DNA from: an uncultured Caldilineaceae bacterium
GTDB lineage: Bacteria; Chloroflexota; Anaerolineae; Caldilineales; Caldilineaceae
NCBI GenBank assembly: GCA_951812725.1
Contig: OX638330.1
Span: 2,914,001-2,978,000 of the forward strand
Direction of reading: 5' to 3'
DNA length: 64,000 nucleotides
Made by a program: the position numbers and the translations under genes. Shown piece after piece: positions 32,417 to 44,246 of the stretch. The notes beneath the pieces are model-generated. The model did no database searches and was not told the DNA's origin. It saw only the letters and a list, made by a program, of their open reading frames with translations. Each line of letters begins with the position of its first letter. Position 1 is the stretch's first letter.

Positions 32417-33685
32417 TCAGTCGATCAGCGCCTGATATGCCGCCACCCTGAATTCGCGAGCGACCGGGTAGTAACCGGCGGGCATGAACTGGGTCATGAA
32501 TATGCCGAGCATCTCCTCCTTGGGGTCGATCCAGAATTGGGTTGATGCGGCGCCGCCCCAGCCGTAGATGCCCACACTGCCCGGTGTGCTCGTGGCCGGC
32601 AAATCCACCAACACGCTCACCCCCAGGCCAAAACCATATCCAGCGCGGACTTCGGCTCCGAGCCCAATTGGGACCAGTTCGGCCGGCAGATGGTTGGCGC
32701 GCATTAGCTCAGCGGTCTTGCGTCCGAGCAAGCGGTTGCCGTCGAGTGTGCCGCCGTTGAGCAACATCTGGGAAAAGCGCAAGTAGTCTCCGAGAGTTGA
32801 AACGAGGCCCCCGCCACCGGAGAGGAAAACAGGAGGTTTGGTGAATCGGCCTTCCTGGGAAGGTTCATGCAGTTGTATCTTCGGTTCACTGACCTGCTGG
32901 TTATCATCATTTTGGCCGGCGTGCGTTCTCATATTGCGTCCGAGATCGCTGCCGAGACTGAATCCATCGGGAGGGCAATAACAGGCGGAGAAGCGTTCGA
33001 CCGAATCATGTGGCACGTGGAACCCTGTATCCACCATTGCCAGCGGCTTGAATATTTCTTGACGGAAGAAATCATCGAGTGTTTTTCCGGAAAGTACTTC
33101 AACCAGCCGGCCGAGCACATCGGTCGCGAGGCTGTACAGCCAGCGTGTGCCGGGATGATAGAGTAGTGGCAGAGTCGCCAGTTCTTGAACAAACGTCTCC
33201 AGCAGAAGATGTTCGCGGTTACCTACACGCGGACGATATAGTCGGTCGACAGGGGAATTCTGGTCCCATCCATAGCTCAAACCGGCAGTGTGCATGAAGA
33301 GGTCTTTAATCGTGGGTTGCCGGTCCGGCGGCGCGAGGTTTTCGAGGTCGCCGGTGAAGACCTGGACGTCGGCAAACTCCGGCAGAAACAGTGCGACGGG
33401 GTCATCAAGGAGAAAGTGGCCGTCTTCGTACAACATCAGAGCAGCCACGGAAGTGATCGGCTTTGTCATGGAGTAGATGCGGAATATTGTATCCTCGGTC
33501 ATTGGGGCACCTGTTTCGAGCTCCCGCTGGCCAAAGGCGTTGCAGTAGGCAGTTTCGCCTTTGCGATGAAGCAGGCCGAGGGCCCCAGCCAAATGACCCC
33601 CTTGTACGTAGCGTTCCAACAGGTTGTCCAAGCGGGCGAGGCGCTGACGTGAGAACCCGGCTTGTTGCGGTTGAACAGTTGTCAT
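32417..33685 (-). CDS. family VIII serine hydrolase (beta-lactamase class C fold), paralogue 1
   Basis: This 422-aa protein has the SxxK motif YSMTKPIT (nucleophile Ser with Lys). The class C Tyr motif is represented by YSLATDVLGRLVEV, and the third motif region is YGWGGAASTQFW where class C enzymes have KTG. This is the layout of family VIII esterases (EstB-like). The ester or amide substrate is unknown. No signal peptide is present. AAGGATT precedes the ATG. It is one of three tandem paralogues of identical length, the most divergent of the three. Confidence 0.88.
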   Translation of the reverse strand: MTTVQPQQAGFSRQRLARLDNLLERYVQGGHLAGALGLLHRKGETAYCNAFGQRELETGAPMTEDTIFRIYSMTKPITSVAALMLYEDGHFLLDDPVALFLPEFADVQVFTGDLENLAPPDRQPTIKDLFMHTAGLSYGWDQNSPVDRLYRPRVGNREHLLLETFVQELATLPLLYHPGTRWLYSLATDVLGRLVEVLSGKTLDDFFRQEIFKPLAMVDTGFHVPHDSVERFSACYCPPDGFSLGSDLGRNMRTHAGQNDDNQQVSEPKIQLHEPSQEGRFTKPPVFLSGGGGLVSTLGDYLRFSQMLLNGGTLDGNRLLGRKTAELMRANHLPAELVPIGLGAEVRAGYGFGLGVSVLVDLPATSTPGSVGIYGWGGAASTQFWIDPKEEMLGIFMTQFMPAGYYPVAREFRVAAYQALID

Positions 33686-33771
33686 TGGGAATCCTTATTT
33701 CAGATTGAGGTTTGAATGTAAGAGCGTCGTGCCTACCCGTCGCGGTCCGATCGGATGCAAATTGCACCTGT

Positions 33772-35040
33772 TCAGTCGACGAGGGCCTGGTAGGCCGCCA
33801 GACGAAACTCGCGTTCGACCGGGTAGTAATCGGCGGGTACAAACTGCGTCATGAACAGGCCCACCATGTCTTCCTCAGGATCGATCCAGAAGTGAGTCGT
33901 GGCCAAGCCGCCCCAACCGTAGGCGCCGACACTACCTGGTGCGCTGGAAGCCGGCGGGTCCACCAGGACACTCACTCCCAAACCAAATCCATTCCCTGCG
34001 AGGCCGTCATTTCCGATTGCAATTGGGACCAGTTCGGCCGGTAGATGGTTGGCGCGCATCAGCTCCACAGTCTTGCGCCCGAGCAACCGTTTGCCGTCCA
34101 GAATGCCGTCGTTGAGTAACATCTGGGTGAAACTAAGGTAGTCGCCAAGCGTTGAGACGAGACCGCCGCCGCCGGAGAGGAATACAGGAGGCTTGGTGTA
34201 GTTACTGTTATGTGGAGCATCATATAACTCGATTGGCGGCTGGACGGACGTCTTTTCGTCATCACCATGGCCTGGTCTCCTGTTGGCTCTACTGGCAAGG
34301 TCATTGCCGAAGTTGAAGCCTCCGGGGGGACTGTAACAGGCGGCGAAACGATCAAGCGAATCGGCAGGAACGTGGAACCCGGTATCATTCATTGCCAACG
34401 GCTTGAATATTTCCTGTTGGAAGAACTCGCCGAGCGTCTTTCCGGCGATTACTTCAACCAGCCGTCCGAGGACATCTGTTGCGTAGCTATAGCGCCAGCG
34501 TTCACCAGGATGATAGAGCAAAGGCAGAGCTGCCAACTTCTTGACAAATACATCAAGATCAACTGGCTCTCGGTTGCTGAATGTCTGTCGATAGAGATTC
34601 TCGACAGGAGAATCTTCGCCCCAGCCGTAGCTGAGGCCAGCAGTGTGCATGAAGGTGTCTTTGATCGTGATTGGACGGTTAGGCGGCACGAGGTTTTCGA
34701 GGTCGCCAGTGCAGACGTTTGCATCCTCAAACTCCGGCAGATATGTTGCCAGCGGGTCATCCAGAAGGAAATGGCCATCTTCGAACAACATAAGGGCGGC
34801 CACCGCTGTGATGGGCTTGGTCATGGAGTAGATGCGGAAGATGGTATCCTCGGTCATGGGCTGACCGGTCTCGAGATCCCGCTGGCCGATGGCGCTGCTA
34901 TAGGCGACTTCGCCATTGCGATAGATGAGACCCAGGGCCCCTGCCAGGTGACCGCCTTCCACGTAGCGCTGCAGCAGCTTGTCGACGCGGGAGAGGCGCT
35001 GAACCGAGAGCCCGGCTCGTTGCGGTCGCACGATTGTCAT
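33772..35040 (-). CDS. family VIII serine hydrolase, paralogue 2
   Basis: This is a 422-aa tandem copy of the neighbour at 32417-33685, closer to the third copy at 35127. It has the same motifs: YSMTKPITAVAALMLFEDGHFLLDDPL, YSYATDVLGRLVEV and YGWGGLATTHFW. Copies 2 and 3 share long stretches such as SVQPPIELYDAPHN and KPPVFLSGGGGLVSTLGDYL. AAGGACC precedes the ATG. It is 86 bp from each neighbour, and those gaps are non-coding. Confidence 0.88.
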   Translation of the reverse strand: MTIVRPQRAGLSVQRLSRVDKLLQRYVEGGHLAGALGLIYRNGEVAYSSAIGQRDLETGQPMTEDTIFRIYSMTKPITAVAALMLFEDGHFLLDDPLATYLPEFEDANVCTGDLENLVPPNRPITIKDTFMHTAGLSYGWGEDSPVENLYRQTFSNREPVDLDVFVKKLAALPLLYHPGERWRYSYATDVLGRLVEVIAGKTLGEFFQQEIFKPLAMNDTGFHVPADSLDRFAACYSPPGGFNFGNDLASRANRRPGHGDDEKTSVQPPIELYDAPHNSNYTKPPVFLSGGGGLVSTLGDYLSFTQMLLNDGILDGKRLLGRKTVELMRANHLPAELVPIAIGNDGLAGNGFGLGVSVLVDPPASSAPGSVGAYGWGGLATTHFWIDPEEDMVGLFMTQFVPADYYPVEREFRLAAYQALVD

Positions 35041-35126
35041 AAGAGGTCCTTGTTTCGTTATGCGTACTGGGTGGGCGAACTTTGCACGTCCTGTTCGCGG
35101 TTGGATGTGTTGTGATTTGTCTTGGT

Positions 35127-36395
35127 TCAGTCGACGAGGGCCTGATAGGCAGCTAATTGAAACTCGCGCTCGATCGGGTAGTAGTCGGAGGGGATAAACT
35201 GCGTCATGAACAGGCCCACCATTTCTTCCGCCGGGTCAATCCAGAATCGAGTCGTGGCCAGGCCGCCCCAACCGTAGGTACCAACACTGCCTGGGGCGCT
35301 GGAAGCCGGCGGATCGACCAGGGCGCTCATTCCCAGCCCAAAACCATGTCCAGCGCGGGCGTCCGGTCCGAATGCGATTGGAATCAGATCGGTGGGTAGA
35401 TGGTTAGCGCGCATCAGCTCAACCGTCTTGCGTCCGAGCAAACGGTATCCGTCAAGAATGCCATCGTTCAGCAGCATCTGGGTGAAACGCAAGTAGTCGC
35501 CAAGAGTTGAGACGAGTCCGCCGCCGCCGGAGAGGAAAACAGGCGGCTTGGTATAGCGACTGTTATGTGGAGCATCATACAACTCGATTGGCGGCTGGAC
35601 TGACTTCTTTGGGTTTTCACCATGGCCTGGTCTCGTATTCGCTCTGTTGGCAAGGTCGCTGCCGAAGTTGAAGCCCCCGGGTGGACAGTAGCAGGCGGCG
35701 AAACGATCAAGCGAATCGGCGTGAACGTGGAACGCTGTATCATTCATTGCCAGCGGTTTGAATATCTCCTGCTGGAAGAAAACATCGAGCGTCTTTCCGG
35801 AGAGCACTTCGACCACGCGACCAAGTACATCGGTTGCAAGACTGTAGAGCCAGCGTGTGCCTGGGTGATAGAGTAGAGGCAGAGCTGCCAGCTTCGGGAC
35901 AAAGGTCTCAAGAGTTGAGCGTTCGCGGTTGCCAACGTTCTGGCGATACAGTTTTTCGACAGGAGAATCCTCGCCCCAGCCATAGCTCAACCCGGCGGTG
36001 TGCATGAAGAGGTCTTTGACCGTAGGGGGGCGATCGGGCGGCACGAGGTTTTCGAGGTCGCCGGTGCAGACTTGTACGTCCTCAAACTCTGGCAGATATG
36101 TTGCCAGCGGGTCATCCAGGAGGAAATGGCCATCTTCGAACAACATGAGGGCGGCCACAGCAGTGATCGGCTTGGTCATGGAGTAAACGCGGAAGATGGT
36201 ATCTTCGGTCATGGGCTGACCGGTCTCGAGGTCCCGCTGGCCAATAGCGCTGTTATAGGCGACTTCGCCTTTGCGATAGATTAGACCCAGGGCCCCGGCC
36301 AGGTGACCGCCTTCCACGTAGCGCTCCAGCAGCCTGTCGACGCGGGAGAGACGCTGAACCGAGAGCCCGGCTCGTTGCGGTTGCACGGTTGTCAT
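35127..36395 (-). CDS. family VIII serine hydrolase, paralogue 3
   Basis: This is the third 422-aa tandem serine hydrolase, with YSMTKPITAVAAL (SxxK), YSLATDVLGRVVEV and YGWGGLATTRFW. The start at 36395 was chosen because AGGAATT lies just before it and because it makes all three copies the same length. A longer frame to 36608 would add 71 low-quality residues. It lies 85 bp downstream of an MFS carrier gene on the same strand. Confidence 0.88.
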   Translation of the reverse strand: MTTVQPQRAGLSVQRLSRVDRLLERYVEGGHLAGALGLIYRKGEVAYNSAIGQRDLETGQPMTEDTIFRVYSMTKPITAVAALMLFEDGHFLLDDPLATYLPEFEDVQVCTGDLENLVPPDRPPTVKDLFMHTAGLSYGWGEDSPVEKLYRQNVGNRERSTLETFVPKLAALPLLYHPGTRWLYSLATDVLGRVVEVLSGKTLDVFFQQEIFKPLAMNDTAFHVHADSLDRFAACYCPPGGFNFGSDLANRANTRPGHGENPKKSVQPPIELYDAPHNSRYTKPPVFLSGGGGLVSTLGDYLRFTQMLLNDGILDGYRLLGRKTVELMRANHLPTDLIPIAFGPDARAGHGFGLGMSALVDPPASSAPGSVGTYGWGGLATTRFWIDPAEEMVGLFMTQFIPSDYYPIEREFQLAAYQALVD

Positions 36396-36480
36396 TTGAA
36401 TTCCTAATCTCCGGTTAAGAACTGAATGAGCGAGCGTATCGGCGCCGGCTCTGATGGAAACAGCGGCGCGCCGCGGTGAA

Positions 36481-37701
36481 TCAATCTGCGGCCGCGGCGG
36501 CGCCTGACAGTTCAGTGCGTTCATGAATTGGCAGGTGGACGAGCGCGGCAAAGACGCCCAGTGCAATGCCGGCAATCCAGACGGGCGTGTATGTGCCGGT
36601 GGTATCATAGAAGCGTCCTCCCAGCCATACCCCTAAGAATGCTCCGATTTGATGGCTGAAGAAGACGATTCCATAGAGCGTAGACAGATAGCGCGTTCCA
36701 AAGATTTTTGCGACGATTCCGCTGGTGAGCGGTACGGTGGCCAGCCAGAGTAAGCCGATCGATCCACCGAAGATCAGGGCGGATGTACGGGTGACGGGCG
36801 CCAGCAGAAAGAGCAGGATAACCAGCGCCCGGCCCAGATAGATAATGCTCAACATGTATTTGCGGGAGAACCTATCACCGAGCCAGCCAAAGGTGACCGA
36901 ACCAAGAATGTTGAAGGCGCCGATCAGGGCCAATGCGCCAGCGGCAACAAAGTCGGGCAGTCCATTGTCGCCCAGAAAAGCGGGAAGATGCGTGCCTATA
37001 AAGGCGACATGAAACCCGCACACGAAAAAACCGGTAGTCAGAAGCAGATAGCCCCGATGGCGCGCGGCCCTTTCTAGCACGGCACGAAAGGGCTCGTCCA
37101 GGTGCGGCTGTTGCACACCATGCACCTGTGTACCCGGCCGAGAGGGCAGACCGAATGCCATCAGCGCCACCACTGCGGCGACTGCGGCCAGGGCGTAGAG
37201 TGCGCCCTGCCAGCCCAGATTGGATACGAGGAGTTGAGCAAGCGGGGGGACCACGAACATACCGGCAGAGCTCATTGCCGTGATGATGCCGAAGACACGG
37301 CTGCGCTGATCCTCCGAGACCAACTGCGCGACCGCCCCCAATACGATGACGAAGTGGGTGGCGCTCAAGGCGATTCCCACGAGGAGGCCGAGTGACAACA
37401 TCAGCCCAAGTGTCGTTTTCACAAGGGCAACCATAACGAGGCCAGCCGCGTAGAAAATTGCACCTGCGATCATTACTCGCCGCGGCCCAAAGCGGTCTGA
37501 GAGGAGGCCTATCAGGGGCAGGCCAAAAACAATATTGTTGATGGCGATAGCAATGCTCAGGTTTTCGCGGCCGGTTCCAAGCGTTTCTGTAATGGGCGCA
37601 AGAAACAGGCCGAAACTGGACCGGATGCCCGAGCTGAGCATCACAGCCAGCGAAGCGGAAATAATGGCGGCGGCGACAAGTCTGCGGTTGCTGGTCACCA
37701 A
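36481..37701 (-). CDS. MFS transporter (monocarboxylate-porter-like)
   Basis: This 406-aa protein has about 12 membrane segments with GLLSDRFGPRRVMIAGAIFYAAG in loop 2-3 and FGWLGDRFSRKYML in the second half. An N-terminal part (SSGIRSSFGLFLAPITETLGTGRE) resembles oxalate/formate- and monocarboxylate-type MFS carriers. The start codon is TTG at 37701 (or GTG at 37698) and has no strong ribosome-binding site, so the exact start is uncertain. It is the first gene of a run with three esterase-like hydrolases, an oxidoreductase and an isomerase, suggesting uptake of an ester or sugar acid. Confidence 0.85.
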   Translation of the reverse strand: MVTSNRRLVAAAIISASLAVMLSSGIRSSFGLFLAPITETLGTGRENLSIAIAINNIVFGLPLIGLLSDRFGPRRVMIAGAIFYAAGLVMVALVKTTLGLMLSLGLLVGIALSATHFVIVLGAVAQLVSEDQRSRVFGIITAMSSAGMFVVPPLAQLLVSNLGWQGALYALAAVAAVVALMAFGLPSRPGTQVHGVQQPHLDEPFRAVLERAARHRGYLLLTTGFFVCGFHVAFIGTHLPAFLGDNGLPDFVAAGALALIGAFNILGSVTFGWLGDRFSRKYMLSIIYLGRALVILLFLLAPVTRTSALIFGGSIGLLWLATVPLTSGIVAKIFGTRYLSTLYGIVFFSHQIGAFLGVWLGGRFYDTTGTYTPVWIAGIALGVFAALVHLPIHERTELSGAAAAAD

Positions 37702-37831: not shown

Positions 37832-38710
37832 CTACTGGGGCCGGTTTTCTGGACGGCGGGCGACAGAGATATAGACGACGGCGGCGGTGATGGCGAAACC
37901 GAACCACTGGAGCGCGTAACTGAAGTGATTGCCTTCATCAAGAGTTACATCCTGCTCCAGGCGAAGGGGCAGGCCTGACGAGTAGGATTGCCCTTGGGAG
38001 CGGCGCGAGTTCAGGGCGTTGTCGTTTGCTGGCCCCAACTGCAAGACAACAGGCATCAGTTGATAGGGCAGCGTTTGACCGATGGCTTCAATGTCGAGAC
38101 GGTACCAGCCGGTAACGGTATCCTGCGGAATCTCGGACACGGTTCCGTCCGGCCGGCGGCGCGTCGGTTGCAGGATACCCGTTTGGGGCCCGCTTCCATG
38201 CTCGTCTAAATTGCGCCAGGTGGACGGATTGGCTTCGGCCACGGGAATCCAACCCCGATTTACCAGCACCGCCATTTCAGACCCGGAGATGCGGAGCGGC
38301 GTTACAAGATGGAAGCCGGGCTGGCCCTGGTGGTTTTGATTTCGGATCGCGACCTGACGGGCGTAATCAAACTCGCCATTCGCCAGTGCATGACGGTCTC
38401 GGATGTCTCCGTGGGGCAAGGGCGCGCCCGTCAGTTCCAAGGGGGGCGCGGCGAGGGCGACGCTGCGCTGTTGATTGAACGCCCTTCTTTGTTCCAGGCG
38501 GTCCAGTTGCCAGAAACCGAGCGCGGCCATAATGGACATGGCCAGCAGCAAAATGAGTGTCTTCCACCACCAGCGGCGGCTGAACAGGAGCGCCAGTGTC
38601 GACCCGACCTCCCTGGCTGAAAGGGCTCTTCGGTTCTCGTTCTTGGCGGGTTGTTGAAATTTCTGGTGGATGCGGCGTTGCTCCAACCTTGTCTGGGGCG
38701 AACCGGCCAT
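37832..38710 (-). CDS. SURF1 family cytochrome oxidase assembly protein
   Basis: This 292-aa protein has the SURF1 layout: an N-terminal membrane segment (WWWKTLILLLAMSIMAALGFWQLDRLEQR), a periplasmic domain with HLVTPLRISGSEMAVLVNRGWIP, and a second membrane segment near the C-terminus (FSYALQWFGFAITAAVVYISV). SURF1 helps insert heme a into subunit I. The ATG at 38710 shares one base with the stop of the upstream gene (TGATG), a sign of coupling; a longer frame to 38857 is not needed. It is the last gene of the cta operon. Confidence 0.9.
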   Translation of the reverse strand: MAGSPQTRLEQRRIHQKFQQPAKNENRRALSAREVGSTLALLFSRRWWWKTLILLLAMSIMAALGFWQLDRLEQRRAFNQQRSVALAAPPLELTGAPLPHGDIRDRHALANGEFDYARQVAIRNQNHQGQPGFHLVTPLRISGSEMAVLVNRGWIPVAEANPSTWRNLDEHGSGPQTGILQPTRRRPDGTVSEIPQDTVTGWYRLDIEAIGQTLPYQLMPVVLQLGPANDNALNSRRSQGQSYSSGLPLRLEQDVTLDEGNHFSYALQWFGFAITAAVVYISVARRPENRPQ

Positions 38711-39384
38711 CAGGAGCGGCCTCCGGCCGGCGCGGGGTCTTGTTTCTTGGTGTGAGCAGGCTCGTTGCGCGCGGCGGCCGGCTGGGTAAACCAATATAGC
38801 AGGGCCGCGCCTATCAAGAGCAAGACCGACAAGAGACCGCCGAGAACTGCACGCCATGGGAAGGCTTTGGGCAGTATTTCATCTTCAAAGCCCACAACCT
38901 GAGCGGGGTCGCAGGCTAAGGCCGAGGCGCCGCTCTGCTGGTTCCCGCTGACTTCTCCTGTTTCACAGCCGGGTGGGGCAATTCGCACTTGCACGGACCA
39001 GTTTCCCTGTTTGCCCGGTTCAAAGGAGGCCTCGTAAAAGAGCTTATTGAGGGCGTCATCGTGTGTTGCCTGGGCGCTATAGGTCGAACCGCTCTCGAGA
39101 TGTGTCAGCTCGACGATCACGTAGGCATCCAGGACAGGGCCGCCTGCAAGACCGGTGGTGTCACCTTCGACGTTTTCGGTCAGAGCGATTGTCACGTGGT
39201 ATTCGCCGACCAAGGGGGGCTCGGGGTCTGACCAGACGTATACACGGTAGGGGCCGGCCGGAACGTTGTTCAGATGCTGGTTGCCTACACCACCGTGAGC
39301 CTGCAGCGGCGCCGGCAACAGCGCGATTGTAAGCAGGAGCAGCAGATTTAATATCGTGAAAAGTATTACTTGGGACTTGCGCAT
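38710..39384 (-). CDS. cta-operon periplasmic protein with possible N-terminal His copper site
   Basis: This 224-aa protein has a strong signal peptide (MRKSQ, then a hydrophobic run ending LLPAPLQA). A beta-sandwich follows: PAGPYRVYVWSDPEPPLVGEYHVTIAL and DAYVIVELTHLESG. A C-terminal membrane anchor (WRAVLGGLLSVLLLIGAALLYWF) precedes a short tail. If cleaved after LQA, the mature protein starts with His (HGGVGNQH), as in copper-binding His-brace proteins such as CopC. Its place between ctaG and surf1 fits copper delivery to the oxidase. FixH/YtkA-like relatives are the alternative. Copper binding is inference. The start at 39384 was chosen for the signal peptide; the frame extends to 39846. 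Confidence 0.65.
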   Translation of the reverse strand: MRKSQVILFTILNLLLLLTIALLPAPLQAHGGVGNQHLNNVPAGPYRVYVWSDPEPPLVGEYHVTIALTENVEGDTTGLAGGPVLDAYVIVELTHLESGSTYSAQATHDDALNKLFYEASFEPGKQGNWSVQVRIAPPGCETGEVSGNQQSGASALACDPAQVVGFEDEILPKAFPWRAVLGGLLSVLLLIGAALLYWFTQPAAARNEPAHTKKQDPAPAGGRS

Positions 39385-39470: not shown

Positions 39471-40406
39471 CTAGCCACAGGCAACGGCTGTCGGACCGGC
39501 GCGGTTGGCCGGCTGCGCCATCCCCAATACAGGAGGATGCGGCTTCCTTACGCGGGCCTTGTGCTCGGCGGTCACCAGCAGACGGGCCAGCAGGGCCAGC
39601 GCGGCGATGACGTACATCATGCTTCCGGGTATCCACATGATGAGTCCGCCCCAGACCTGATCGTCCATGACACTGAGTCCGTAAAGACGGGGCACGGACT
39701 GGTAATATGGATAGATCGGCGTTTCGGCGAAGGAGAGAGTCACGCCCAGCAGCAGGTTTGGCGGAATCATGGCCAGCACATACCCGACCCGCATCCATTG
39801 GGCCGGTTTTGGGTGGATGCGCGGGGCAGCGCCGGTTACATGCCACCAGAAAAGCATGGCCGCGCCGACGAAGGTGAAGTGCTCCAGCCCATGCACGGAT
39901 GGGAAGCGCAAGGCGAGGCTGTAGGCGTTGCCGTCATGCCAAGCGAAGAATATCAGCACGTAGAGAGCCCAGGCGCTGGCCGGCGAGGTTGCCTTGCGCA
40001 CGGCCTGGCTGATAATGTTCTGACCTGCCAACCAGGCAGTCAGGCGGCGAAAGGCGGCGGCGACAGCTATGCGCTGGTTGGTGGGCAGGACCCATATGAA
40101 GGTCGGGAACGGGTTTGCCAGGAGCAGGAGCGGCGGCGCGGCCATCATGAGCAGCAGGTGCTGGACCATGTGGATGGAGAAAAGCTGTCCGCTCAGGACG
40201 TCTATCGGAGAGAGGAGCGCAAGCGCAAGAATCAGGAGGCCTCCCGTGTAGGAGGCGAGACGCCAGCGGTTGGCAAACCGACCATCGCTGCGGCGCCGCA
40301 GCCTAAGCCAACCGAAAAAGTGGAGCGCTCCCAGCAGTATTAGCGGCACCAGGACCTCCGGTCGGAGATCCCAGGAAAGCAGGAGCGCTCTTGTTAGCGG
40401 ATTCAT
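39471..40406 (-). CDS. ctaG: cytochrome c oxidase assembly factor CtaG (caa3 type)
   Basis: This 311-aa membrane protein of the Caa3_CtaG family has about seven segments and the family residues HMVQHLLLMMAAPPLLLLANP, FFAWHDG and HGLEHFTFVGAAMLFWWHV. The conserved His residues are thought to bind copper destined for CuB. It is co-directional with and 52 bp downstream of ctaE. It is unrelated in sequence to the CtaG/Cox11 copper chaperone of proteobacteria. Confidence 0.9.
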   Translation of the reverse strand: MNPLTRALLLSWDLRPEVLVPLILLGALHFFGWLRLRRRSDGRFANRWRLASYTGGLLILALALLSPIDVLSGQLFSIHMVQHLLLMMAAPPLLLLANPFPTFIWVLPTNQRIAVAAAFRRLTAWLAGQNIISQAVRKATSPASAWALYVLIFFAWHDGNAYSLALRFPSVHGLEHFTFVGAAMLFWWHVTGAAPRIHPKPAQWMRVGYVLAMIPPNLLLGVTLSFAETPIYPYYQSVPRLYGLSVMDDQVWGGLIMWIPGSMMYVIAALALLARLLVTAEHKARVRKPHPPVLGMAQPANRAGPTAVACG

Positions 40407-40458: not shown

Positions 40459-41133
40459 CTAGTGAGGTATGTCGATTGTTGTACCAATCAGGTAGATGGC
40501 GGGATAGAAGAAGATCCACACCAGGTCTACATAGTGCCAGTAGATGGCGCAGGCTTCAACGCCCCAGTGTCTTTCGGCAGAGAAGTGGCCTTTGCGCCCC
40601 AGCCACCAGACGTTGAGAATCAGGATAACGCCGGAGAGGACGTGCAGTGCGTGCATGCCGGTCATGCCGAAAACGACGGCGCCGAATACGCCGTCAGTGG
40701 GTTTGAGATGCCCTTTGACCAGACTGGGGAACATTCCCCACTCCCAGACGACGACGCCGATGAGGAACGCAGTGCCAAGGAAGGCGGTTAAGAGAAGACT
40801 GATTTGGAAGTCGGTGCGTTTGCCGTTGGCGATCGAGACTTCGGCGCGGTTCATGAAATAGCTGCTCAGCAGCAGAACGGCGGTGACTACCAGGCCGGCG
40901 AACTGGTCCAACTCCGGGCGGACGATTTCGCCGTGGGGGCCGCGCCAGAGATAGAAGCGGGTGACCAACAGGCCGAGGAAGAGGAAGGCTTCCGAGGCGA
41001 AAAACAGCCACATTCCCAGCCGGTTACGGCGCGTGTTTTCCAGGTAGGTTGGGAGATCTGTTTCGCCAGAGTCGTGATTGTCAACTGCGGCGTGGTCGGG
41101 CTCGTGCCCATGTTCAACTGCGGTAACAGTCAT
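40459..41133 (-). CDS. ctaE: cytochrome c oxidase subunit III
   Basis: This 224-aa subunit III has five to six membrane segments and the family motifs RRNRLGMWLFFASEAFLFLGLL, MTGMHALHVLSGVILI and the C-terminal WHYVDLVWIFFYPAIYL. It stabilises the oxidase core. A hydrophilic His-rich N-terminus (EHGHEPDHAAVDNHD) is visible. Its ATG shares one base with the ctaF stop (TGATG). Confidence 0.95.
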   Translation of the reverse strand: MTVTAVEHGHEPDHAAVDNHDSGETDLPTYLENTRRNRLGMWLFFASEAFLFLGLLVTRFYLWRGPHGEIVRPELDQFAGLVVTAVLLLSSYFMNRAEVSIANGKRTDFQISLLLTAFLGTAFLIGVVVWEWGMFPSLVKGHLKPTDGVFGAVVFGMTGMHALHVLSGVILILNVWWLGRKGHFSAERHWGVEACAIYWHYVDLVWIFFYPAIYLIGTTIDIPH

Positions 41134-41418: not shown

Positions 41419-43302
41419 CTAGTCGTCGCCCGGCGAGGCGGTTGTCACGTAGCCGGAGTCAGCGAGGCCGTAGTCGTAGGGTTCGCCTACGACGTGCAGA
41501 GGCGCCGGGAAGCTGTGTTCCGGAATTGGCGAAGGAATCTGCCACTCGGGCGAGCGGGAGCGCCAAGGGTTGTCGCCGGCTGCTACGCCCACTTCTGCGT
41601 TCTGGAAGAAGTTCCACAGCATCAGCATTACGCCGAAAGCGATGGCGAAGCCGGCAATGGTAACAGCCAGTTGCCAGTTCTCGATCTGACCCTGGCCCAG
41701 GGTTGGGTCATAGTCGGCGATGCGACGGCGCATGCCCATCACGCCCACGCCCATCTGTCCCAATGTCTGCACCCAGAAAGCGGGTGTCATTATATAGAAG
41801 TGGATCTTGCCGAGCGTTTCGTTGTACATGCGCCCGGTGACTTTGGGGAACCAGTAGTAGAGGGCGGCGAAGAACGGGAAGACAAAGCCGCCGAACATGG
41901 TGGCGTGAAAATGGCCGACCACAAAGTAGGAGTCGTGCAACGGGAGGTCGGTGGGCACGGTTGCCAGAATTGGTCCGGTCAGACCGCCGATCAGGAAGAC
42001 ACTGATGGCTCCGAGGACGAAGAGCATCGGCGTATCGAAATGGATTTTCCCGCCCCACATGGTTCCGAGCCAGCTGAAGAATTTGACACCGGTTGGAATC
42101 GCTACAAGCAAAGTCGCATACATGAAGGGTATGCGAAGAATGTCGTTGTAGCCGGACACGAACATGTGGTGGCCCCAGACGATAAAGCCGACAATGGCAA
42201 TCGCCATACTGGAGAGGGCGATCCACTTGTATCCGAACAGTGGCTTGCGGGAGAAGACCGGCAGCAGTTCACTGACGATGCCCAGACCCGGCAGGACGAA
42301 GATATAGACGGCCGGGTGACTGTAGAACCAGAACAGGTGCTGGAAGAGGACTGGGTCGCCGCCGCCGACCATGGGGCTGACTTCGCCCAAAATGCCGCGA
42401 GGGTCAAAGAAGCCCATTCCCAGGGCCCGCTGGACGGAAACCATAAGGAAGCTTGTGCCGATGAGCTGGGTGGCGGTGAGCTGAATCAGGCTGGTGGCAA
42501 AGACCGCCCAACAAAAGATTGGCATGCGGAAGAGGCTCATGCCGGCCGGCCGCATGCGCAGGAGCGTTACCAGCAGGTTGAGGGAGCCGACGATGGAAGA
42601 AAGGCCGATGGCAAAGACGCCCAGGAAAAAGAGTTGGTAGCCGATAGGGCCGCGTGCGCTAAGCGGGGGATAGGCGGTCCAGCCGGCATCCCATCCGCCT
42701 ATGAAGATGCTCACCAACAACAAAACACTACCCGGCACGTTGAACCAAAATCCGAGCGCGTTGAGGCGGGGGAAGGCCATATCCTCGGCGCCGATCATTA
42801 GCGGGACCAGGTAGTTGGCCATGCCGCCAACGCCGAGGAGGATCGCGAAGATCATGATCATCCCGTGCATGCCGATGAAACTGTTGTATAGATCGAGGCC
42901 GAGGAACTGCAGGCCGCTGCGCGCCAACTCGGTGCGGAAGATCATGGCGACGGTGCCGCCTACCATCAGGAGCAGGATGCCCCAGACGGTATATTGCACA
43001 CCGATGACTTTGTGGTTGTAGTCAACACTGAAATAGCGGGTCCAGGCCGGCTTGTCCACTGGCGGGCCATGGTGGATAGGCGTGGCCACGCCTTTAGTCC
43101 ACTTCAGCCAGTCATCCAGCGCGCCGACGGCGAGGAGGAAGCCGATGATACTGCAGACGGAGCCGACAGTCCAGGCTGGTTCGGCGGCCCAGGCTTCCCA
43201 GCCCAGCAGTATGCGCACGCCGCAGGTCAACAACATGCCGGTGACCATGCCCAGAACCTGGCCAAAGAGGCCGCGTGCGAGTCCTAGAGTGAAAAGCGTC
43301 AT
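41419..43302 (-). CDS. ctaD: cytochrome c oxidase subunit I (A2-type)
   Basis: This 627-aa heme-copper oxidase core reduces oxygen to water and pumps protons. The low-spin heme His lies in FIGMHGMIMIF. The CuB His and the cross-linking Tyr region is FWFYSHPAVYIFVLP, the double His is VWGHHMF, and HDSYFVVGHFHATMFGG holds heme ligands. YSHPA instead of the A1-type HPE indicates the A2 class, which uses a Tyr-Ser pair in place of the D-channel Glu. About 90 residues precede the usual start of helix 1 (VDYNHKVIGVQYT), including two extra hydrophobic segments. AGGAGATTC lies before the ATG at 43302. Confidence 0.97.
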   Translation of the reverse strand: MTLFTLGLARGLFGQVLGMVTGMLLTCGVRILLGWEAWAAEPAWTVGSVCSIIGFLLAVGALDDWLKWTKGVATPIHHGPPVDKPAWTRYFSVDYNHKVIGVQYTVWGILLLMVGGTVAMIFRTELARSGLQFLGLDLYNSFIGMHGMIMIFAILLGVGGMANYLVPLMIGAEDMAFPRLNALGFWFNVPGSVLLLVSIFIGGWDAGWTAYPPLSARGPIGYQLFFLGVFAIGLSSIVGSLNLLVTLLRMRPAGMSLFRMPIFCWAVFATSLIQLTATQLIGTSFLMVSVQRALGMGFFDPRGILGEVSPMVGGGDPVLFQHLFWFYSHPAVYIFVLPGLGIVSELLPVFSRKPLFGYKWIALSSMAIAIVGFIVWGHHMFVSGYNDILRIPFMYATLLVAIPTGVKFFSWLGTMWGGKIHFDTPMLFVLGAISVFLIGGLTGPILATVPTDLPLHDSYFVVGHFHATMFGGFVFPFFAALYYWFPKVTGRMYNETLGKIHFYIMTPAFWVQTLGQMGVGVMGMRRRIADYDPTLGQGQIENWQLAVTIAGFAIAFGVMLMLWNFFQNAEVGVAAGDNPWRSRSPEWQIPSPIPEHSFPAPLHVVGEPYDYGLADSGYVTTASPGDD

Positions 43303-43387
43303 AGAGAATCTCCTGCCAAGAAAATCAGGCCTGACAAGTGCAAACAAGCGGGAAAAGCATTACCGAGACTCTTCTCCTGGAGGCAGC

Positions 43388-44107
43388 TCACTGCTGGAGT
43401 TGAGCAAGTTGCTCGGATTGCCAGAGCTTGAATTCTTCGGCGGATACAACCCGCACGGTGGCCAGCATACCGCTGTGGTTTGTACCGCAAAGCTCGGCGC
43501 AGCGCAGCACATATTCCCCTATTACATTAGGGGTGAAGCGCACGTTTGTGATCTTACCGGGAACGGTATCCTGCTTGACCCGAAACTCCGGCACCCAGAA
43601 GTTATGCAAGACATCATCCGAGGTGAGGTCCACGCGCACTGGCGTGTCAACAGGCAGGACCAGCTCAGGCGTGACGGCGCCGGATTCGGGATAGGTGAAG
43701 AGCCAACTCCATTGCCGTCCTTCTGCGACGACAACGTATTCGTTGGGGTTCGGCCTGGTCAGGTCGATCAACATGGTGGTGGCGTACCAGGCGAAATAGA
43801 CGACGACGAAGCAGGGCACGACTGTCCATACGATTTCGAGGGTTCCATTGCCGTGAATGTGCTCGCCGTCTCCTTCATCGCCGCGGGCGCGGAAGACAAT
43901 CAGGGCATAACACATAAAGACGGCAACGAGGGCGAAGAGAAATGCGATCAGCCAGATGTGTTGGTCGAACATTTCGTCGATAGGACCGGCCTCGACGACT
44001 GCCGCTGCTGGTTTGAGAAGGACGCTGTCCAGTATCCAGTAAACGAGCACGGTACTGATCACTATCAACACGGATGCAATGACAAAGTGTCGACGGTTGT
44101 TCGCCAT
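43388..44107 (-). CDS. ctaC: cytochrome c oxidase subunit II
   Basis: This 239-aa subunit II has two N-terminal membrane segments and a periplasmic cupredoxin domain. The CuA site comprises the His of VLHNFWVPEF and CAELCGTNHSGM (Cys, Cys, His and Met ligands). There is no fused cytochrome c domain, so electrons must come from a separate carrier. The start at 44107 has GAGGAAAT upstream; a frame from TTG at 44236 is not supported. It is the first gene of the operon, about 105 nt behind a near-consensus promoter. Confidence 0.96.
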   Translation of the reverse strand: MANNRRHFVIASVLIVISTVLVYWILDSVLLKPAAAVVEAGPIDEMFDQHIWLIAFLFALVAVFMCYALIVFRARGDEGDGEHIHGNGTLEIVWTVVPCFVVVYFAWYATTMLIDLTRPNPNEYVVVAEGRQWSWLFTYPESGAVTPELVLPVDTPVRVDLTSDDVLHNFWVPEFRVKQDTVPGKITNVRFTPNVIGEYVLRCAELCGTNHSGMLATVRVVSAEEFKLWQSEQLAQLQQ

Positions 44108-44217
44108 ACAGATTTCCTCAAGAGTCCTCTGACTGAATCTTCCCACTGACAGACCTGCGAACGCGGTAGGCACAGGCGGGGCAGGCCAAGCGAGAGTGGG
44201 TGTGTCACCCGAACGAC

Positions 44218-44246
44218 ATTGTACAAAAAGGCACAAAACATGTCAA
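44218..44246 (-). promoter_or_regulatory. near-consensus sigma-70 promoter of the cta operon
   Basis: On the minus strand a perfect TTGACA (44246-44241) and TACAAT (44223-44218) are separated by 17 bp. The predicted start is near 44211, giving a leader of about 105 nt before ctaC. It is the best promoter match in the window and implies strong constitutive expression. Confidence 0.75.

Follow-up and report, generated by a model that had tools for sequence, protein, structure and literature searches.

The window analysed here is a stretch of 64,000 nucleotides from the genome of a member of the Caldilineaceae (Chloroflexota). On its minus strand we observed an oxidase operon with the gene order COX2-COX1-COX3-CtaG-X-SURF1, where X encodes the precursor described in Table 1 (protein X). 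An AGGA is found 9 bases upstream of the X ATG, and the X stop overlaps a SURF1 ATG by one base (TGATG), which suggests that the translation of the two genes is coupled. An earlier note on this DNA had placed X between ctaG and SURF1, and the profile matches of both flanking genes bear this out. The nearest named record for protein X (96% identity) comes from a Caldilineaceae MAG. The C-terminal end of COX2 carries CAELCGTNHSGM, which we take to fit the CuA ligands. COX1 reads YSHPAVY, where many oxidases read HPEVY; this is reminiscent of A2-type oxidases. The minus strand also holds, at 32417-36608, a tandem array of three paralogues from the beta-lactamase/serine hydrolase family (PF00144).

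Table 1. Features of the oxidase operon and of protein X, in window coordinates.
Feature	Position	Strand	Evidence
SURF1	37832..38710	-	PF02104, 1.9e-38; start taken as the ATG sharing one base with the X stop; longest ORF to 38857
Protein X precursor, 224 aa: signal peptide, YtkA/CrdA-like Ig ectodomain, C-terminal helix, Pro/Lys tail	38710..39384	-	ORF, model, profile comparison
Predicted C-terminal membrane helix, mature 148-170	38788..38856	-	model secondary structure
Codon of mature His79 (precursor His108), which is kept less strictly and may be an accessory ligand	39061..39063	-	46/71 main-clade rows; 13 tree changes, exceeding those of His1 and of His63
Codon of mature His34 (precursor His63), candidate for the second ligand of the brace	39196..39198	-	67/71 main-clade rows; phi 0.76 with His1; start of model strand 33-41
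Codon of mature Trp22 (precursor Trp51), best His1-tracking column	39232..39234	-	69/71 main-clade rows; phi 0.82
Codon of mature His1 (precursor His30)	39295..39297	-	rank 1/192 columns; 70/71 main-clade rows
Predicted signal peptide, residues 1-29, ending LQA	39298..39384	-	sequence; -1 Ala/Gly in 77/77 His1 homologues
Caa3_CtaG	39471..40406	-	PF09678, 2.4e-56
Cytochrome oxidase subunit III	40459..41133	-	PF00510, 1.7e-21
Cytochrome oxidase subunit I	41419..43347	-	PF00115, 5.9e-145
Cytochrome oxidase subunit II	43388..44236	-	PF00116, 1.8e-20

Other copper genes were found in the same genome. SCO1 lies just outside the window (2912009-2912407) and is nearer than a second Caa3_CtaG (G000:C1:2894029-2894757), which is about 20 kb past the window edge. 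One YtkA lipoprotein is encoded elsewhere, and the CopC profile matches twice elsewhere. A search of this genome for PCuAC gave no match, so that it has the acceptor, SCO, and appears to lack the usual PCuAC donor. A NapH-like query, run without a positive control, also found no match there.

Around the predicted cut the precursor reads LLPAPLQA/HGGVGNQHLNN, and His1 and His8 of the mature protein are both present. His1 is present in 77 of the 103 tree rows. At -1, immediately before it, 75 of these homologues have Ala and 2 have Gly; at -3 they have Ala (27), Leu (21), Val (20), Thr (5), Ser (2), Met (1) or Ile (1). The LQA/HGG break presumably follows the usual -3/-1 rule and would fit a signal peptidase I site. 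We infer that protein X is cut after LQA and begins with His1, as the earlier note had predicted. In the SignalP training set His makes up 2.6% of mature first residues, according to the accessible text of PMC12537917, as compared to 70 of 71 rows in the main clade; its occurrence at this position is therefore above chance.

The 103 tree rows were obtained from 113 aligned rows by leaving out nine below 45 bits and L187, whose N-terminus is cut. Since the homologue profile derives from His1 proteins, it favours the recovery of such proteins. In the 71-row main clade His1 is at the top of all columns by weighted conservation, and His34, which belongs to the strand motif GEYHVT, ranks 9 of 192. 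Trp22 and then His34 are the best predictors of His1 among the 159 columns tested; Glu89, kept in 58 of the 71 main-clade rows, has a phi of 0.58 with His1. Both His1 and His63 (mature His34) are present in 70 of the 103 rows; 23 rows lack both, 7 carry His1 alone and 3 His63 alone. The trees imply 5-6 changes of His1 and 7-8 of His63. When the His1 labels were shuffled at least 19 changes were needed, which indicates that the His1 trait follows the tree. Independent-pair tests of His1 and His63 were non-significant, the two well-supported independent pairs being too few for such a test to reach significance; as the rows are related, no formal significance is claimed for this covariation.

The second histidine that the earlier note had pointed out, seven residues past His1, is present in the protein of the window but is not conserved: it occurs in 13 of the 113 aligned rows, all from the window's own genus, in a column with consensus Gln that ranks 72 of 192. 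His8 was therefore rejected as second ligand, and the candidate partner of His1 is His34. This position is Asn in three CtaG-adjacent members (L131, L148 and L169) and Asp in one (L212); Asn34 together with His1 and Trp22 is seen in 3 of the 71 main-clade rows. One main-clade member, L188, has lost both histidines (Gln1, Tyr63) and kept Trp22, and CtaG was not detected in its genome. Remote homologues with the same fold in other contexts are without His1 and have Asn, Pro, Ile, Ser or other residues instead. In L204-L210 and L213 the mature start reads ANGG (Asn1), with Asp in the His63 column, and two of these (L205 and L208) lie beside CtaG; the alignment puts Glu first in L205, yet the motif there reads EA/NGG.

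The genomic neighbourhood of the homologues was then compared. CtaG is found within 2.2 kb at 64 of the 112 loci examined, 12 of the 64 being from the same genus as the window, and SURF1 directly follows in 40 of them. His1 is present in 62 of these 64 members and both histidines in 58; the members with neither are L205 and L208, both from outside the class. The earlier note had made its reading depend on the conservation of His1 next to ctaG, and there His1 holds; across all homologues it does not, since remote ones lack it, L205 and L208 beside CtaG included. Among 346 genomes of the class, the X family occurs in at least 94, CtaG in 117 and both in at least 79 (Fisher p = 2.8e-33, relatedness ignored). 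The class and phylum searches scored the first 9 and 8 candidates per genome, respectively, so that these tallies are lower bounds. For 67 class members, the numbers in genomes with and without CtaG were 47 and 2 (both histidines), 3 and 10 (neither), 4 and 0 (only His1), 0 and 1 (only His63); that is, 10 of the 13 members in genomes without detected CtaG lack both. A family match was found in 44 of the 46 genomes of the window's own family. These computed results show that protein X is associated with CtaG and that His1 and His34 are conserved.

Homologues were also observed in a second context. At 24 of the 112 loci a polyferredoxin-like membrane protein is encoded within 2.5 kb, with no CtaG alongside, and at 17 of these 24 a canonical YtkA lipoprotein is also encoded, no more than 4 kb away. 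Both histidines are kept in 5 of the 24 (L175, L176, L177, L180 and one more), and most lack them. The match of polyferredoxins P0001-P0003 to NCBIfam NapH/MauN stays below the cut-off of that family, and the neighbouring YtkA matches PF13115. CtaG, YtkA and polyferredoxin are all present at L140, L147, L151, L205 and L208. The conserved trio, as seen at L177, L182, L204 and other loci, consists of a YtkA-like lipoprotein with MxHxGM, a NapH-like polyferredoxin membrane protein of about 483 aa and the X homologue; it is often near oxidase genes, mostly with an X homologue that lacks His1/His63. The polyferredoxin CcoG is discussed as a cupric reductase (PMC13344008, accessible part), and by analogy the NapH-like proteins may be compared to it. 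As the same fold thus occurs elsewhere in the phylum with YtkA and polyferredoxin, mostly without the brace residues, copper reduction and a brace may be alternative routes. In addition, Caldilineaceae loci L142, L200 and L201 encode second X-like paralogues with His1 and His63 and no oxidase, YtkA or polyferredoxin genes nearby; the neighbours of L142 include an MR_MLE-type enolase and an aminotransferase.

A model of mature protein X was obtained from 13 sequences (pLDDT 75.5, pTM 0.62). It shows an Ig-type sandwich followed by a helix at residues 148-170, in agreement with the beta-sandwich and the C-terminal anchor of the earlier note. Residues 1-3 have a pLDDT below 50, and for this reason no preformed brace is visible. 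In the model, strand 17-23 is followed directly by strand 33-41, and residues 22 and 34 may therefore face each other. By VIA-align the best match is CrdA of Helicobacter pylori (Z 12.3, rmsd 2.3 over 104), together with FetP, P19, FtrA, Tp34 and HftA (Z 10.6-12.2); a nanobody follows at Z 8.9. DUF4426 (3uc2) also matches, with Z 10.8, which is a counterpoint to reading the fold as that of a copper protein. Foldseek TM-scores were modest (0.40-0.50 by query length, for rows with E < 0.001).

Profile searches with protein X of the window reached no Pfam family, YtkA-like PF13115 included; among 29 relatives searched at E up to 1, 12 match PF13115 (best 4.3e-6). HHalign of the X family against 23 canonical YtkA rows gave a probability of 97.6 (reversed control 0.2), and a 58-row X profile recovers 22 of the 23. 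Judged by these comparisons, protein X is a divergent relative of YtkA/CtaK. Its residue +1 is His, not Cys, and it would therefore lack the lipid anchor of the canonical YtkA neighbours; the MxHxGM motif is absent from all 103 family rows. The two sequence features of a histidine brace, a mature N-terminal His and a second conserved His, are present at His1 and His34. The Met-rich copper motif of CrdA was not found: the ectodomain in the window has no Met, and neither have 35 of the 77 His1 rows. No profile match to CopC (PF04234), YcnI (DUF1775) or LPMO was obtained for any of the 29 members, with E values allowed up to 1, and membership of these families was rejected; the three are also absent from the fold matches listed, an absence which excludes nothing. 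An identity with FixH was likewise discarded, 2 of the 29 members giving weak matches. His63 was also considered as the His of the FtrA motif DVHLEADI, on an A1 profile match (E 0.1) that was lost with the 58-row profile, and this mapping was set aside.

The His1 protein probably provides a copper-handling site used in the building of cytochrome c oxidase. Protein X would be exported and cut after LQA, and its C-terminal helix would tether it to the outer side of the membrane. In the brace, on a YtkA/CrdA-type Ig fold, His1 would supply its free amine and its imidazole, and His34, from an adjacent strand, a second imidazole; Trp22 would act in packing or in the second sphere. Protein X would then hand its copper on to CtaG, SCO or both, for use in CuB or CuA. 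That protein X is such a membrane-tethered, copper-holding chaperone of oxidase assembly with a His1/His34 brace is the reading that we favour and consider probable. The His-brace copper protein of the earlier note stands as to the conserved His1 and a second conserved His, the nearest solved folds, which are copper proteins, and the place kept in the operon, but not as to the partner histidine; copper binding and the geometry of the site are at this stage predicted. More tentatively, and short of calling it probable, we suggest that the brace arose on a YtkA/CrdA scaffold, the MxHxGM loop being absent and His1, Trp22 and His34 being present and tied to Caa3_CtaG, and that protein X is the copper donor of CtaG.

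The site might instead be a mono-histidine brace as in YcnI, in which Trp22 and either Asn or a carboxylate group accompany the amine and the imidazole of His1, with His34 in a structural or accessory role. The higher conservation of His1 with respect to His34, the rows with Asn34, the tracking of His1 by Glu89, and YcnI itself, which has an N-terminal His, a Glu, a critical Trp and a C-terminal helix anchor (PMC12362106, accessible text), all point in this direction; the retention of His34 in nearly all main-clade rows and its tracking of His1 argue against it, and we regard it as unlikely. It is more doubtful that the oxidase, or CtaG, has in protein X an accessory subunit or scaffold, like CcoH for cbb3, with His1 serving assembly rather than copper transfer. 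Its fixed place in a structural operon, the anchor helix and the weak FixH matches are consistent with such a role, and CcoH remains bound to its oxidase (PMC8267372, accessible part), but a free N-terminal His together with His34 and Trp22 is more than a scaffold requires, and the nearest folds are copper proteins.

A site for a different metal (Ni, Zn), or one for metal sensing, appears very improbable: a DUF4198 protein with an N-terminal His prefers nickel, as reported in the accessible text of PMC12537917, but here the operon context is that of copper, and the scan of the neighbours showed no nickel gene. It is hardly credible that His1 is incidental and protein X an Ig-fold spacer, given that His1 is the most conserved column across 71 diverse rows, even if remote homologues live without it.

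With respect to known systems, neither the mechanism of Caa3_CtaG nor its target, CuA or CuB, is settled according to the accessible text of PMC13344008, and protein X, encoded beside CtaG and carrying a candidate copper site, offers a direct handle on the copper source of CtaG. Apart from the B. subtilis proteins, no YtkA domain had been studied by experiment, as stated in the accessible part of one paper (PMC12362106). Our literature search, with most subscription papers outside its reach, found no description of a YtkA-type protein with an N-terminal His in an oxidase operon. CtaK (YtkA) of Bacillus subtilis, implicated in CuA assembly (PMC13344008, accessible text), is like protein X extracytoplasmic and membrane-tethered, with a homologous domain and, in protein X by proposal, a role in oxidase assembly; it is, however, a lipoprotein, whereas protein X has an N-terminal His and a C-terminal helix, and canonical YtkA neighbours carry the MxHxGM motif that the X family lacks. 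YcnI (DUF1775) shares the N-terminal His, the conserved Trp and the C-terminal membrane helix, and is involved in copper trafficking (PMC12362106, accessible text), but has a cupredoxin-like fold and no second His, is not part of an oxidase operon and gives no profile match. CopC resembles protein X in its N-terminal His brace, which for protein X is proposed from sequence, in its extracytoplasmic location and in its link to a CtaG-type protein; in Corynebacterium a membrane-anchored CopC is proposed to work with CtiP (CtaG-CopD) (PMC9145763, accessible part for both). Unlike these proteins, the 29 X members searched do not match the CopC profile. FetP, P19 and FtrA have a similar fold but serve iron transport with a copper site, and to our knowledge no N-terminal brace is known in them. 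CrdA, a copper protein, is the best structural match and gives a profile E of 1.4e-4 over part of the domain, but has a Met-rich site without His and acts in copper resistance (PMC9182242, accessible text). CtaK/YtkA, YcnI, CopC and CrdA thus each share some traits with protein X, which, if our reading is true, would carry the histidine brace on another fold and represent a brace class for oxidase assembly, undescribed as far as searched, that donates to CtaG.
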